Positions 7,326 to 13,583 of a stretch of 64,000 nt of DNA are shown here, in pieces. The first letter of the stretch is position 1, and every line of letters begins with the position of its first letter. The translations under genes were made by a program, and so were the position numbers. The notes beneath the pieces are model-generated. The model saw nothing but the letters and a program-made list of their open reading frames with translations, did no database searches and had not been told where the DNA came from. This DNA comes from a bacterium HR28 (GTDB lineage: Bacteria > Chloroflexota > Chloroflexia > Thermomicrobiales > Thermomicrobiaceae). The stretch covers positions 868,001 through 932,000 of the forward strand of contig BEIE01000001.1 in NCBI GenBank assembly GCA_002898255.1, read 5' to 3'.

Positions 7326-7403
7326 GGGGCGGGTGCATTCGACGCACGCTGCGAGAGCGAACCGGACGGAGGGGCAACGCGGGACTGCAGGAGGGTGAGG
7401 GCG

Positions 7404-8516
7404 ATGACAATGTTCGACAACCATGAGGACGAGCTGATCCACTCCTTCGCACGCATCAAGGTGATCGGCGTCGGTGGTGGCGGTGGTAATGCGGTCAACC
7501 GGATGATCGAGGCTGGCGTCCAAGGAGTCGAGTTCATCGCGGTCAACACCGACGCACAGGCGTTGCTCAAGTCGCTCGCTCCAGTCACGGTTCGGATTGG
7601 TGACAAGTTGACCAAAGGGCTGGGCGCTGGGGGGCGTCCGGAAATTGGCGAGCGTGCTGCTGAAGAAAGCGCCGATATGCTCGCCGAACTTGTCCGCGGG
7701 GCGGATATGGTCTTTATCGCCGCGGGTATGGGAGGCGGCACTGGGACCGGCGCGTCACCTGTGATCGCGCGTTTGGCGCGCGAAGCAGGCGCCCTGACCG
7801 TTGGTGTTGTTACGCGGCCTTTCGACTTTGAGGGAGCAAAACGGCGCCGCATCGCGGACGAGGGAATCGCCGTGCTTAAGGAGCATGTCGATGCGTTGAT
7901 CACGATTCCCAACCAGCGACTTGTTTCAATGGTCGATCCCAAAACGCCGTTTTCTGAGGCGTTCCGCATCGCAGACGACGTCTTGCGGCAGGGGATTCAA
8001 GGGATCTCCGACCTGATCACCCGACCAGGGTTGATCAACTTGGACTTTGCCGATGTCAAGACGATCCTGCGGGATGCTGGCTCGGCTCTGATGGCGATAG
8101 GCCGCGGGACCGGCGAGAATCGCTGCGTCGATGCAGCCCGTGCCGCTGTAGAAAGTCCTTTGCTCGAGATGAGTATCGAGGGTGCGACGCGCGTCCTCTA
8201 CAACATCGCTGGTGGACCCGACCTCTCGATGGCCGAGGTCAACGAGGCAGCCGAACTCATCCGCTCGATGGTCGACGAAGAGGCCGAGATTATCTTTGGA
8301 ACGACGGAACCCGACGAGGCGATGGGGCGGGACGTAACCATCACGCTTATCGCAGCTGGGTTCACCGGTGCCGGTGCCCAGCGGCGACCGCGGGCACCGG
8401 AGCGGCGTTTCCGACCAGAACCGACGACGCGCACGAGCGCCCCGCCGCGGACGCCGATCTTGCCAGACGACGAGTGGGCGGAGCCGTCCATCCTCCGCTT
8501 CCTGCGTGAGCGCTGA
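7404..8516 (+). CDS. ftsZ: FtsZ, tubulin-like division GTPase
   Basis: Cytoplasmic GTPase that polymerises into the division ring. The start chosen is the ATG behind GAGGGTGAGGGCG, giving 370 residues. The GTP-binding core begins [17 protein letters not shown] (18-34) and has the tubulin signature GGGTGTG (110-116). The T7 loop NLDFADV lies near residue 211. A variable Pro/Arg-rich linker (about 315-355) leads to [10 protein letters not shown], which looks like the conserved C-terminal peptide that binds membrane anchors. No ftsA lies next to it, so the anchor is encoded elsewhere or is another protein such as SepF. Confidence 0.97.
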
Positions 8517-8535
8517 AGGTGAAGGCCGAGCGACC

Positions 8536-9021
8536 GTGAAGTGCCCGTATTGTGGAGCTCGCGATGCGCGAGTCATCGACTCGCGTGAACTCAATGGTGG
8601 CGAGAGCATTCGGCGGCGTCGCGAATGTGTTGCCTGTGGTCGGCGTTTCACGACGTATGAACGCGTGGAGCCGCTCTGGCTGATGGTGGTCAAACGGGAC
8701 GGACGCCGCGAGCCGTTCGATGTAACGAAGCTCCGGGAGGGACTGCGCCTGGCACTGAAGAAGCGGCCCGTCTCACCGGACGAGATTGATCGTATTGTGG
8801 CGACCGTTGAGCGGGAGCTGCACAGTCTCGGCACGAGCGAGGTGCCGAGCACCCTGATCGGCGAGATCGTGCTCCGGGAGCTCAAGCAACTCGACGAGGT
8901 CGCATACATCCGTTTCGCGTCGGTCTACCGTCGGTTCGCCGATCTGGAAGACCTCCGCCGGGAGATGGAAGCGCTTGGATGGCGTCCCCAGCCGGTCACG
9001 GTCAACGAGCAGACGAGCTGA
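8536..9021 (+). CDS. nrdR: NrdR, repressor of ribonucleotide reductase genes
   Basis: Zinc-ribbon/ATP-cone transcriptional repressor that controls nrd genes according to (d)ATP levels. It has 161 residues from a GTG start; the longer upstream frame lies inside ftsZ. The N-terminal zinc ribbon has Cys at 3, 6, 31 and 34 (MKCPYCG... and CVACGRRFTTYER), followed by the ATP-cone domain (about 49-139). Its place right behind ftsZ is seen in other Chloroflexota and Firmicutes clusters. No NrdR boxes or nrd genes are visible in this window. Confidence 0.95.
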   Translation: MKCPYCGARDARVIDSRELNGGESIRRRRECVACGRRFTTYERVEPLWLMVVKRDGRREPFDVTKLREGLRLALKKRPVSPDEIDRIVATVERELHSLGTSEVPSTLIGEIVLRELKQLDEVAYIRFASVYRRFADLEDLRREMEALGWRPQPVTVNEQTS

Positions 9022-10142
9022 GTATTGAGCTCTTCACGGCGGACGATCAGCCGCTGGTTCGCCTGCGGTATACAAACGAAGTGGGAGACGGATTTCGCTG
9101 GATTCCAGATCGCTTCGTCGTCCGCCTGCGTCCGCGGCCGGGTGTGGTTGCCGCAGACAGGCTGGAACTTCGTCTCCCGCCTGGCTGGCGGGTGCTTCCC
9201 CTCAGTGAACCGACTGCCTGGTTGGTGTTCCCTGCTGGCCTGCCGGAATTTCCGGTTCGCCTTCAGCTCGTCACGCGAGGCCAGGATCGAAGGTGCCCGC
9301 TCCTCATTCAGGATCTTCCTGTCGACTTTTGTGGGCGGAACCGCTTTGATCCGCATCGAGATCGTCTGCCCTGGGCAAACCGCATCGATGACCTCGGTGA
9401 GGTGGAGCCAGACCCTGTCCATTTTCGGAAGACCTTCCGGTTTGCACTCGGCTCGCAGAGGTTCTTCCAAGGACTGTACCGGGAGGTCGTCGGGTTGCGA
9501 CGGTTGCCGGACGGGCGAATACAGGGCGGGCTCTGTACCGGTCTCTCCAGGACCGCGCTCGCCCGGGCGCTGGGTTGGCTCGGTGGGGAGATCTCGCTGC
9601 GCGAGGTCGTTCTTGTCCTGCATGGTCGCCAACTGAGCGATCGTGCTCTCTTAGCCGGACTTCCTTGGTTTCTGCTCCCGAGTCCGCGGAGAGCGTACCA
9701 CGCGTTTGTCCGCGACCTTCTGACGCGTGGTTGGAGTGATCGCTGCTTCGATCTCAATGTCCCGCGTCCCTGGCGTCGGGACGTCCTCCAAGCACTCCTT
9801 GGTCAAGGGCACACAGTCGTTCCTTATGCCTTCTGCCAGCGAGATGCTGAGCGTGCGCAGGTTTGGGTGTATGACCCAAACCTACCTGATCGGGCCGCGG
9901 AGACCGTTGTCACCATCGACTTAGTTCGTGACTGCTACGAGTATCCGCCGCTCGCCGTCGATGGGTGCCGGACGACAATCGTTGCCGTTCCACTCGCTCC
10001 GTATTTGCATGGCCGAACGGCAATCCTGGCGAGTGTAGCAAGCCCATTTCTCCAGGCGCCACGACGGCTGCTGGGTGTACTGGTGGTTTCACTCCTTGGG
10101 CTTGCGCTCTTCGCTTTTCGCCACTGGAGCAGAAAACGATAG
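8979..10142 (+). CDS. Membrane-anchored papain-like (C39/C1-fold) protein, putative
   Basis: I do not recognise a named family for this 387-residue protein. The first 150 residues look like beta-rich, Arg-rich sequence. Residues 183-188 read GGLCTG, then GQGHTVVPYAF (276-286) and VWVYDPNLP (295-303). A Gly-Gly-x-Cys-x-Gly, Gly-His-x-Val and x-Tyr-Asp-Pro-Asn order is what papain-like/C39-like cysteine hydrolases show, suggesting Cys186, His278 and Asp299 as catalytic residues; this is inference. One hydrophobic helix (about 364-380) followed by RHWSRKR makes it tail-anchored, and no signal peptide is seen. The ATG lies 43 bases inside nrdR, so the two are coupled. A hairpin follows the stop. 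Confidence 0.6.
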   Translation: MASPAGHGQRADELSIELFTADDQPLVRLRYTNEVGDGFRWIPDRFVVRLRPRPGVVAADRLELRLPPGWRVLPLSEPTAWLVFPAGLPEFPVRLQLVTRGQDRRCPLLIQDLPVDFCGRNRFDPHRDRLPWANRIDDLGEVEPDPVHFRKTFRFALGSQRFFQGLYREVVGLRRLPDGRIQGGLCTGLSRTALARALGWLGGEISLREVVLVLHGRQLSDRALLAGLPWFLLPSPRRAYHAFVRDLLTRGWSDRCFDLNVPRPWRRDVLQALLGQGHTVVPYAFCQRDAERAQVWVYDPNLPDRAAETVVTIDLVRDCYEYPPLAVDGCRTTIVAVPLAPYLHGRTAILASVASPFLQAPRRLLGVLVVSLLGLALFAFRHWSRKR

Positions 10143-10167
10143 AGCGACCGGAGGGGACCGGTCGCTC
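10142..10167. terminator. Hairpin between convergent genes
   Basis: GAGCGACCGG and CCGGTCGCTC pair perfectly over 10 bases around the loop AGGGGA. It lies between the stop of the papain-like gene and the end of trxA, which face each other. It is a likely two-way terminator, although neither side has a clear T-run. Confidence 0.6.
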
Positions 10168-10191
10168 GCGCTCAGGCGGAAGGCATGCTGC

Positions 10192-10515
10192 TCACAGATG
10201 CTTTTCAATCTGCTGCAGCAGGCGCTGCTTCGGCATCGCGCCGATGATCCGCTCGACCGGCTTGCCGTCCTTATAGAGAATCAGCGTGGGAATGCTGCTA
10301 ATTCCCAGCTGCATTGCCACCTGCATGTTCTCGTCGACGTTCACCTTGGCAACCTTGAGCTTCCCCGCCTTCTCTTCAGCGATCTCCTCGAGAATGGGGG
10401 CGATCATGCGGCAGGGGCCGCACCAAGGTGCCCAGAAGTCGACGAGTACTGGAACCGGTGACTGGACGACTTCACGATCGAACGTCTCGTCGCTGACCGT
10501 TACGGGCTTGGCCAT
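10192..10515 (-). CDS. trxA: Thioredoxin
   Basis: Small cytoplasmic disulfide reductase of 107 residues, the standard thioredoxin length. The active site is WCGPC (31-35) within [13 protein letters not shown], and the cis-proline is in [13 protein letters not shown]. The start is the ATG of MAKPVTVSD; a longer upstream frame is not conserved-looking. It is a single gene with its own promoter upstream and a hairpin after its stop. Confidence 0.97.
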
Positions 10516-10566
10516 CCTCTCGCTCCCTCTCGCTCCGTTCCCCCACGTCACGTGGGCTCTCGCACC

Positions 10567-10596
10567 ACTATACGAGAGCGGCCAGCGGAGCGGCAA
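10567..10596 (-). promoter_or_regulatory. trxA promoter
   Basis: Read on the minus strand, TTGCCG (-35, 10591-10596) is followed after 18 bases by TATAGT (-10, 10567-10572). The transcript would start about 45 bases before the trxA ATG. Confidence 0.6.
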
Positions 10597-10634
10597 CCGA
10601 TCGAGGGCTCCGCAGTGAAGCCGGGATCCCTCGT

Positions 10635-10640
10635 TATACT
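10635..10640 (+). promoter_or_regulatory. -10 box for the glycosyltransferase operon
   Basis: TATACT sits 21 bases before the GTG of the first glycosyltransferase. No strong -35 can be seen. It is divergent from the trxA promoter, and the two -10 boxes are about 60 bases apart. Confidence 0.5.
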
Positions 10641-10661
10641 CTCCGATCGAGTGGGGGGACG

Positions 10662-11837
10662 GTGGAGGCGCGCGTGTTGACGGCTCTGCTGGACGGTGCA
10701 TTTGCGACGCAGCCGCACACGGGGAGCGGGCAATACACCATCGCGCTCTGGCGAGAGTTCACCACCGGTGAATTAGGCGAAGTGCACCTGGCCATGCCTG
10801 TTCCGCCGCCGGTCTTTCTCGCGGCACCAGAACATGTCGTCGTGCGTCGGCCCAACTCGCTCGTACGCGGCAAGCTGGCCAAGCTCTGGTGGGAACAGGT
10901 CGGACTTCCACGCTTGGCAGCAGAGCTGCGTCCCACGGTCGTGCACATACCGTACTTTGCCGCGCCGCTCCGCATCAGCACACCATTCATCGTCACGGTG
11001 CACGACGTGATTCCGCTCGTGTTGCCGGAGTATCGTGCGTCGCTCGCGTTCCGACTGTACACCGAGCTCGTGCGACGGACCGTGCGGCGGGCAGCGCTCG
11101 TCCTTACAGATTCACAGTGGTCGCGAGACGATATCGTGCGCGTGTTGCGGTATCCGGCAGAACACATTCGTGTGATCCCACTTGGCGTCGAGTCGCGCTT
11201 TCGTCCTCCGGAAAAGATGGACGCGGTGCGGGCGTTGGCGCAGCGCTGGGGCATAAGCGGTCCGGTCGTCCTGAATCTTGGGGGCTTCGACGTGCGGAAA
11301 AACTTGCCATTGCTCGTTCGCGCTTTCGCGCGGGCACTCCCCGAACTTCCCGAGGGAACGATGCTCGTCATTCCCGGCCGCGCACATAGCGAGAACCCGC
11401 GACTGTACCCACCGCTTGAGCCGCTCATTCGTCGGCTCGGTCTCCAGCAGCGCGTCCTTCTGCCTGGCCCGGTCACTGAAGATGAGAAAGTTCTCTGGTA
11501 CCAGCTCGCGACGGTCTACGCGTACCCTTCGCGCTATGAGGGATTTGGTCTCTCACCCCTCGAGGCGATGGCTTGTGGGACGCCGGTGATTGCCGCTCGG
11601 TGTACGAGCCTTCCAGAAGTTGTTGGGGATGCGGGGATCCTCGTCCAGCTGGACGAGGAGGCCTTTGCTGCAGCGCTCGTCCGCCTGCTGAATGATTCGG
11701 CCCTCCAAGAAGAACTGCGGGCGCGTGGACTCGCACGGGCGAGGATGTTCACCTGGCAGCGGACAGCACGTGAAACAGTTGCGGCGTACCATGAGGCGGT
11801 GAACATCGCTGCTGTCGGCAGCGCGGCGATAGGTTGA
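10662..11837 (+). CDS. GT4-family glycosyltransferase
   Basis: Predicted cytoplasmic GT-B enzyme that transfers a sugar from a nucleotide donor; donor and acceptor are not evident. The 391 residues begin at a GTG behind [20 protein letters not shown] and [11 protein letters not shown] lie in the N-terminal half. The donor-site signature [20 protein letters not shown] carries the E-x7-E pair typical of GT4. The nearby gene 6 bases downstream is another GT4 enzyme, so the pair may build a glycolipid or exopolysaccharide. It is not MurG (GT28), whose motifs are absent. Confidence 0.85.
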
Positions 11838-11843
11838 GGTCCG

Positions 11844-12980
11844 ATGCGCATCCTTATCGTCTCCAAGGCGCTCGTGAACGGTGTCTACCAGCGGAAGCTC
11901 GAGGAACTCGCGCGCTTGCCGGACGTGGAGCTCCTGGCTGTGGTGCCGCCCTTCTGGCACGAGAATCGTGTCGGTGTCCTGCAACTCGAGCGGCGCTATG
12001 TGGAGGGATATCAGCTTGTTGTGGAGCCCATGTGGTTCAACGGCCATCACCACGTGCACTTCTATCCCGGGCTTGGGAAGCACATCGCACGTTTCCGACC
12101 TGATATCCTCCACATCGACGAGGAGCCGTATAACCTGGTGACTGCCCACGCTGCGTTGCTCGGGCGCCGCTATGGGGCTCGTATTCTCTTTTTCACCTGG
12201 CAGAACCTTTACCGACGCTATCCGCCACCATTCTCGTGGTTCGAACAGCTCAACTATCGGCTGGCTTCTGCGGCGGTTGCGGGGAACCACGAGGCGGCCG
12301 ATGTCCTAAGACGGAAAGGCTTTCGCGGACCGTTAGCGGTCATCCCACAGTTCGGGGTCGATCCGGAGCTGTTCCGCCCAATGACAGTGGCACGGGCAGC
12401 CGTTCCCACGATCGGTTTCGTCGGACGGCTCGTGCCAGAGAAGGGGGCGGATTTGCTCATCCGCGCGCTGGCACAGCTGCCTGGACGCGTTCAGCTTGAG
12501 ATTGTTGGAGACGGGATCGAGCGTACACGTCTCGAGTTGCTTGCCACGGAGCTGGGGGTTCGCGACCGCGTTCTGTTCCGCGGTGGCGTGCCACCGGCGC
12601 TCATGCCGGAAGCGCTGAACCGGTTCGACGTCCTTGTCGTCCCTTCACGGACGCGCCGCAACTGGAAGGAGCAGTTCGGGCGCGTCATTATCGAAGCGAT
12701 GAGTTGCGGCGTGCCGGTGGTTGGTTCGTCGTCGGGCGAGATTCCGCATGTGATCGGCGATCCGTCACTGGTTTTCCCGGAGGACGACGTCGATGCGCTG
12801 GTGCGTCTTCTGAGGAACCTGCTCGCCGATCCGGAGCGCCTACGCCAGTTGGGCGAGGCCGGTCGGCGACGGGTGCTGGCGCACTATACCCAACGCCGGA
12901 TCGCCGAACAGTACTACGCGGTCTACCAAGCGATGCTGGCGGCTCGGCGCTTCGAGTCGCAGGTGACCGAGGAGGGCTGA
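11844..12980 (+). CDS. GT4-family glycosyltransferase
   Basis: Second GT-B glycosyltransferase, 378 residues, ATG start. The N-terminus MRILIVSKALVNGVYQRKLEELA and the acceptor-side motif ILHIDEEPYNLVT suggest a different acceptor from its neighbour. The C-terminal donor domain has IGFVGRLVPEKGADLLI and IIEAMSCGVPVVGS. Between ELNR-like residues and the donor domain it has RTRRNWKEQFGRV where GT4 enzymes normally have the EGFG loop, so the first Glu is replaced by Glu in KEQFG. It lies between the other glycosyltransferase and the flavin-reductase gene with no gap, as one operon. Confidence 0.84.
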   Translation: MRILIVSKALVNGVYQRKLEELARLPDVELLAVVPPFWHENRVGVLQLERRYVEGYQLVVEPMWFNGHHHVHFYPGLGKHIARFRPDILHIDEEPYNLVTAHAALLGRRYGARILFFTWQNLYRRYPPPFSWFEQLNYRLASAAVAGNHEAADVLRRKGFRGPLAVIPQFGVDPELFRPMTVARAAVPTIGFVGRLVPEKGADLLIRALAQLPGRVQLEIVGDGIERTRLELLATELGVRDRVLFRGGVPPALMPEALNRFDVLVVPSRTRRNWKEQFGRVIIEAMSCGVPVVGSSSGEIPHVIGDPSLVFPEDDVDALVRLLRNLLADPERLRQLGEAGRRRVLAHYTQRRIAEQYYAVYQAMLAARRFESQVTEEG

Positions 12981-13583
12981 GTGGCGATGGGGCGCAAGGA
13001 ATCACGCGAACCACGACTTGCAGCGCGCCTGCTCGAACCTGGTCCTGTGGTGCTCGTGACGACTCAATACCGAGCGCACCCGAACGTCATGACTGCTGCC
13101 TGGGTTATGCCGCTCAGTCTCGAGCCGACGCGCATTGGGCTGGCCGTTCACCCGAGCCGCTTGACGCACGAACTTCTGTCGAAGGGTGAGTACTTCGCGC
13201 TGAATATCCTGACCCTTGAACATCTGCTCGCGATCCACCTCTGTGGGACTCTTTCTGGTCGCGACGTGGATAAGTTCACGCGAGCCCAGCTCCATCCGGT
13301 GGATGCGCTGGAAGTTGATGTGCCAGTACTTGAGGAAGCGGTTGCGCACATTGAGTGCGGTGTCATCGCGCGACTTAGCCTCGGCGATCATGACCTGTTC
13401 GTTGGGGAGGTGATCGCCGCCGCCGCGGACACCGAGCTTTTTGGCGAGCGGTGGCTCCAGCTCGAAGAAGCGCCGCTCGTACACCATGTTGGTGCGGAGT
13501 GGTACGCAGCACTGGCACGAGTTTCTCGTGCTCGCCTTCCCGGCGAGGAGGAAGAAGAGGCTCAGGAAGAGAGTGAGCGATAG
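12981..13583 (+). CDS. Flavin reductase-like, FMN-binding protein
   Basis: About 200 residues with the flavin reductase-like split-barrel pattern: PGPVVLVTTQYRAHPNVMTAAWVMPLSLEP, then LLSKGEYFALNIL and VAHIECGVIARLSLGDHDLFVGEV. Such proteins bind FMN and transfer electrons from NAD(P)H to flavin or act as flavoredoxins; the partner here is unknown. Starts are possible at GTG 12981, just behind the previous stop, or ATG 12987; the GGAGGG at 12971 serves either. The C-terminus is very acidic (GEEEEEAQEESER). The 3' end overlaps the convergent MqnA-like gene by 22 bases. Confidence 0.78.
   Translation: MAMGRKESREPRLAARLLEPGPVVLVTTQYRAHPNVMTAAWVMPLSLEPTRIGLAVHPSRLTHELLSKGEYFALNILTLEHLLAIHLCGTLSGRDVDKFTRAQLHPVDALEVDVPVLEEAVAHIECGVIARLSLGDHDLFVGEVIAAAADTELFGERWLQLEEAPLVHHVGAEWYAALARVSRARLPGEEEEEAQEESER

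Follow-up and report, generated by a model that had tools for sequence, protein, structure and literature searches.

The closest described systems to the protein analysed here are enzymes of the papain-like superfamily, which takes in acyltransferases, transglutaminases and deamidases (PMC10318531), and in whose core the Cys stands at the N-terminus of a helix and strands 2 and 3 supply a His and a polar residue (PMC10318531); the triad of NlpC/P60 enzymes is Cys-His-His (PMC10318531). In the window (the whole stretch of 64,000 nucleotides that was analysed, from a Thermomicrobium-like Chloroflexota genome), the gene at 8979-10142 is predicted with high confidence, from an invariant triad and a modelled fold, to encode an active cysteine enzyme of the papain-like kind, in a family that appears to be uncatalogued. 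The features of the gene and its immediate neighbours are as follows.

8536..9021, + strand: nrdR, the 5' neighbour, overlapping by 43 bases (sequence; nrdR-gene order kept in all 18 testable genomes; spacing)
8979..10142, + strand: whole gene, papain-like protein of 387 aa with an Ig-like N-terminal domain and a C-terminal hydrophobic helix (ORF and translation; dN/dS; orthologues)
9018..9338, + strand: N-terminal beta-sandwich, Ig-like, residues about 14-120 (AlphaFold2 model of 11 orthologues)
9525..9542, + strand: GGLCTG, residues 183-188, with Cys186 (predicted catalytic) at the N-terminus of helix 186-197 (G184, C186 and G188 invariant in 48 sequences)
9618..9641, + strand: LHGRQLSD motif, residues 214-221 (conservation)
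9801..9833, + strand: GQGHTVVPYAF, residues 275-285, with His278 (predicted catalytic) opening beta-strand 2, 278-287 (H278 invariant in 48)
9861..9887, + strand: VWVYDPNLP, residues 295-303, with Asp299 (predicted third catalytic residue) directly after beta-strand 3, 292-298 (D299 invariant in 48)
10068..10124, + strand: putative tail anchor, a hydrophobic helix near the C-terminus (residues 364-382) with a basic end after it (hydropathy)
10192..10515, - strand: trxA (thioredoxin), convergent, downstream boundary of the gene's site (ORF with ATG, from sequence; retained at this position in genomes lacking the papain-like gene)

The ORF begins with ATG and comprises 387 codons plus a stop. 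Comparison with three congeners gives dN/dS of 0.17, 0.15 and 0.10, a sign of purifying selection, and these values, together with orthologues in three families of the order and the invariance of C, H and D, indicate a real gene and not a chance frame. The nrdR gene starts with GTG at 8536 and its stop ends at 9021, which with the ATG at 8979 gives the 43-base overlap of the initial annotation; the order GGLCTG (Cys186), GQGHTVVPYAF (His278), VWVYDPNLP (Asp299) is likewise present in the translation as that annotation described it. An alignment of 11 orthologues has 43 invariant columns, among them L214-L219 and D221 of the LHGRQLSD motif; once distant relatives are added, the number decreases to seven in 34 sequences, and in a catalytic-region alignment of 48 sequences, down to 16-20% identity, only G184, C186, G188, H278 and D299 are invariant, with Q218 nearly so (at least 90% of the sequences). 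The non-glycine invariant columns of this alignment are C, H and D only, and the proposed Cys-His-Asp triad, which had been staked on conservation among orthologues, holds among these and among the wider relatives.

The same 48-sequence alignment was the input to AlphaFold2 for a model of residues 112-387 (model residue 75 is residue 186), which has a pLDDT of 94.2 and a pTM of 0.88. Helix 75-86 (model numbering, as are the positions that follow) has Cys186 as its first residue and precedes five strands (144-151, 167-176, 181-187, 199-203 and 221-227); H167, which is His278, starts strand 2, and D188, which is Asp299, directly follows strand 3. The model thus has an antiparallel sheet after the helix, the His on strand 2 and the polar residue on strand 3. 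Nearly all of the best 50 rows of a VIA-align comparison with the PDB are papain-like enzymes, with Z of 5-8.3: a Bacteroides T6SS effector domain (8.3), staphopain (7.8), streptopain (7.2), IdeS (7.0), the C39 domain of PCAT (6.5) and phytochelatin synthase, a transpeptidase (6.1), with ZUFSP, UfSP, pseudomurein endoisopeptidase and cathepsins among further papain-like rows. By the guidance that comes with VIA-align, Z of 5-8 are middling taken singly. Foldseek with this model returned no significant PDB or viral match, its best papain-like PDB row having an E of 0.39; the structural match to solved members comes from VIA-align, Foldseek alone being non-significant. What carries the assignment of the papain-like fold is that the VIA-align list of folds, the order of the strands and the invariant residues agree. 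The papain-like core, which the initial annotation had left for structure prediction to confirm or overturn, is present in the model and among its VIA-align matches. A first AlphaFold2 job on the 11 orthologues gave a poor catalytic core (mean pLDDT 64) and Foldseek rows that were mostly Ig folds, none significant, and was superseded by the 48-sequence job.

The window protein has no match at E<=1 in Pfam, NCBIfam or PDB sequences and no PHROGs, PADLOC, viral-contig or plasmid match; the 11-orthologue profile finds nothing among PDB sequences at E<=10; the 48 members have no meaningful match in Pfam (at 0.1) or NCBIfam; and a search of a literature library found nothing on the gene. One distant relative matched NF045837 ('Mplas_Cys_pep') at a non-significant E of 0.085, which was not used. 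Comparison by hhalign with profiles built from Chloroflexota domains gave no link, and there was no Pfam match, for C39 (PF03412, E 0.056), C39_2 (PF13529, E 0.13), BtrH_N (PF14399, E 0.022), NlpC/P60 (PF00877, E 0.29) or Transglut_core (PF01841, E 0.025), the BtrH_N and transglutaminase-core alignments spanning 26-51 columns. In a control, the C39 profile finds C39_2 at 2e-17; the NlpC, transglutaminase and C39_2 profiles likewise fail to find one another, and these negatives therefore mean a separate family, not a separate fold. With no Pfam or NCBIfam match in any member and no profile link to the five families, this looks like a separate family that Pfam, NCBIfam and the five Chloroflexota-built profiles do not cover.

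Of 21 genomes in the window's taxonomic family (f1), 14 were found in a genome search to carry one copy of the gene; the search also found orthologues in two other families of the order, f91 and f92 (five genomes together), and a copy in three of five genomes of the more distant family f30. Profile searches found domain-level relatives across Chloroflexota and, with a relative as query, on two Rhodococcus plasmids. In the tree, the window branch (the order plus f30) is split from the wider relatives with support of 100/99 by a long branch, so the exact root of the window branch is unsure; the profile link between the two is 4e-19 over 215 columns, a somewhat generous value since both profiles were cut from one joint alignment. 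In f30 (L042-L044), the profile match or the frame crosses one TGA codon, which is probably just the end or the start of the gene. Weaker profile matches in four genomes of family f27 (G155, G211, G278, G357) fall in short frames (217-296 codons), which suggests single-domain members. A widespread branch (L103, L106, L108, L112 and others) has the motifs GGHCEGMAVLS...LQREIAYWWATQ...GGHAITPYAVED...VYDNNYPG and no Pfam or NCBIfam name; its proteins often have signal or lipoprotein peptides, and one frame has 5057 codons.

Outside the catalytic region, the N-terminal sandwich has nine strands, with block pLDDT mostly 76-91 in the first AlphaFold2 model, and a match of orthologue L024 to NEW3/NPCBM_assoc (E=0.0015) fell below the cut-off. 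Ig-like domains are commoner outside cells, which speaks against a cytoplasmic enzyme. By hydropathy, neither the window protein nor the examined members of the window branch have an N-terminal hydrophobic stretch or signal peptide, so the enzyme should stay cytoplasmic. An upstream start that would add a signal peptide was considered and rejected, the frame 5' of 8979 being without a hydrophobic stretch. The strongest hydrophobic stretch of the protein is residues 364-382 (Kyte-Doolittle 19-mer mean 2.06), with basic residues on either side, so that a single hydrophobic segment lies in the last ~30 residues of a protein without a signal peptide, the arrangement of a tail-anchored protein. The corresponding mean is 1.2-2.5 in all examined members of f1; the helix is weaker in f91/f92 and absent in f30, and is not conserved in f92 and f30 orthologues. 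The tail anchor of the initial annotation is thus supported in the window's family and does not extend to all orthologues, and because the tail is flanked by basic residues and is unconserved in f92 and f30, anchoring may be dispensable or wrong. On hydropathy, the papain-like enzyme is probably tethered to the membrane on its cytoplasmic side in Thermomicrobium and close kin.

The papain-like gene lies directly 3' of nrdR in all 18 genomes with a readable junction (13 of f1, the window included, one of f91 and four of f92). The ATG at -43 is kept in five of five measurable genomes of the genus, the window included; plausible starts in f1 range from -43 to +12 bases from the nrdR stop, and more than 230 bases separate the two genes in the f91 genome and in one f92 genome. 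Coupling to nrdR, as initially annotated, is therefore a conserved order within the taxonomic order, mostly overlapping or abutting. Much of the order conserves, with or without the gene, a block (7403-13583 in the window) of ftsZ, nrdR, the gene's site, convergent trxA, two glycosyltransferases and a flavin reductase-like gene. In genus g4 of the window's family (three genomes) and in family f2 (two genomes), convergent trxA and then a glycosyltransferase come immediately after nrdR and the papain-like gene alone is missing, and the f30 copies lie outside the ftsZ-nrdR cluster and do not adjoin nrdR; in L026, the sole f30 neighbourhood read in detail, proS and threonine synthase (identified by sequence) are among the genes nearby. 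The suggested survey for the gene after nrdR elsewhere in Chloroflexota thus bears out the arrangement within the order, except in g4 and f2, and not in f30. The most parsimonious account has an accessory gene occupying a fixed site within a conserved block, a position that by itself implies no role either in division or with NrdR.

That account bears directly on two readings that take the position as a clue to function. The initial annotation had suggested a link to division or wall turnover, and in 18 genomes the gene does close the mur/fts cluster, immediately behind ftsZ-nrdR, as would suit a division or cell-wall enzyme (NlpC/P60-like) of the dcw cluster; however, g4 and f2 lack the gene but keep the cluster intact, the nearest copies outside the order stand elsewhere (in L026 among housekeeping genes), the window protein and its orthologues have no signal peptide with which to reach the wall, the NlpC profile gives no link and a separate NlpC/P60 protein is encoded in the genome, so that this suggestion is not supported and such an enzyme is quite improbable. 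A protease acting on NrdR, ribonucleotide reductase or the thioredoxin system would explain the conserved nrdR-trxA site, with its overlapping or abutting starts, but this too is improbable, as the f30 copies do not adjoin nrdR and the block is conserved whether or not it holds the gene; inherited gene order accounts for the placement.

The remaining alternatives concern chemistry. A pseudoenzyme, in which the papain-like scaffold serves for binding only, is very improbable because C, H and D are invariant in 48 of 48 sequences at such low identity, and a dead scaffold would not need them. The same fold and triad could also belong to a transferase (an acyltransferase, a transglutaminase or a protein deamidase) whose thio-acyl enzyme is resolved not by water but by an amine or some other acceptor, a possibility of some weight: the superfamily includes such enzymes (PMC10318531), phytochelatin synthase is among the structural rows, and the triad by itself does not separate transferase from peptidase. 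The best structural rows are mostly peptidases, though, and the Chloroflexota transglutaminase-core and BtrH_N profiles, over their few tens of columns, give no link. A peptidase is accordingly predicted as the likelier of the two, with reasonable confidence, but since papain-like folds also perform acyl transfer, transglutamination and deamidation, the bond that is cleaved is a guess.

What is shown is a conserved gene, its invariant triad, a predicted fold and the gene order; to these, a model of the peptidase reading would add catalysis, a choice of peptidase over transferase chemistry, a membrane topology, co-transcription and a role for the Ig-like domain. The C-terminal tail would tie a cytoplasm-facing enzyme to the inner side of the cell membrane; the Ig-like N-terminal domain would probably present or bind the substrate; Cys186, activated by His278, which is oriented by Asp299, would attack a peptide or isopeptide bond; and the thio-acyl intermediate formed at Cys186 would be resolved by water. 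The papain-like gene and nrdR are probably on one message. Taken whole, this predicted arrangement of an inner-face, tail-held cytoplasmic papain-like thiol hydrolase with an Ig-like substrate domain, co-transcribed with nrdR, is one on which we are evenly divided. A broader proposal is speculative: that the window protein belongs to the non-exported branch of an uncatalogued Chloroflexota/actinobacterial-plasmid family and that in Thermomicrobium and its kin this branch supplies a putative membrane-tethered protease, co-expressed with NrdR, that regulates a cytoplasmic or membrane target. To our knowledge, membrane-tethered cytoplasmic papain-like proteases are unusual in bacteria. The papain-like enzymes gain a family with a well-defined predicted active site that is absent from Pfam and NCBIfam, and with this definition many Chloroflexota 'hypothetical proteins' become readable as probable cysteine enzymes.

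Among known systems, staphopain, streptopain and the cathepsins (clan CA) share with the window protein the Cys-His-Asp/Asn order and the core of a helix and five strands, and match the window model with VIA-align Z of 7.8, 7.2 and up to 5.8, respectively, over about 130-165 residues at about 7-12% identity; the window protein differs from them in having an Ig-like N-terminal domain and a C-terminal hydrophobic helix, and no Pfam/NCBIfam match or signal peptide. NlpC/P60 wall peptidases are alike in belonging to the papain-like superfamily in the broad sense, but the window triad is Cys-His-Asp, the profile E is 0.29 and the window protein lacks an export signal. Peptidase C39/C39_2 resembles it in a Cys near the start of a helix, a His and then a D-P motif, and the C39 domain of PCAT1 matches the window model with a Z of 6.5 over 118 residues at 15% identity, whereas there is no profile link and the window protein is not fused to an ABC transporter. 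The wider relatives of the GGHCEGM...GGHAITPYAVED...VYDNNYPG type, from Chloroflexota and Rhodococcus plasmids, are of the same family, and the invariant G-x-C-x-G, H and D are common to both; they differ in that the domain occurs in other proteins, often larger ones (468-5057 codons per frame), several of them with a signal or lipoprotein peptide at the start.
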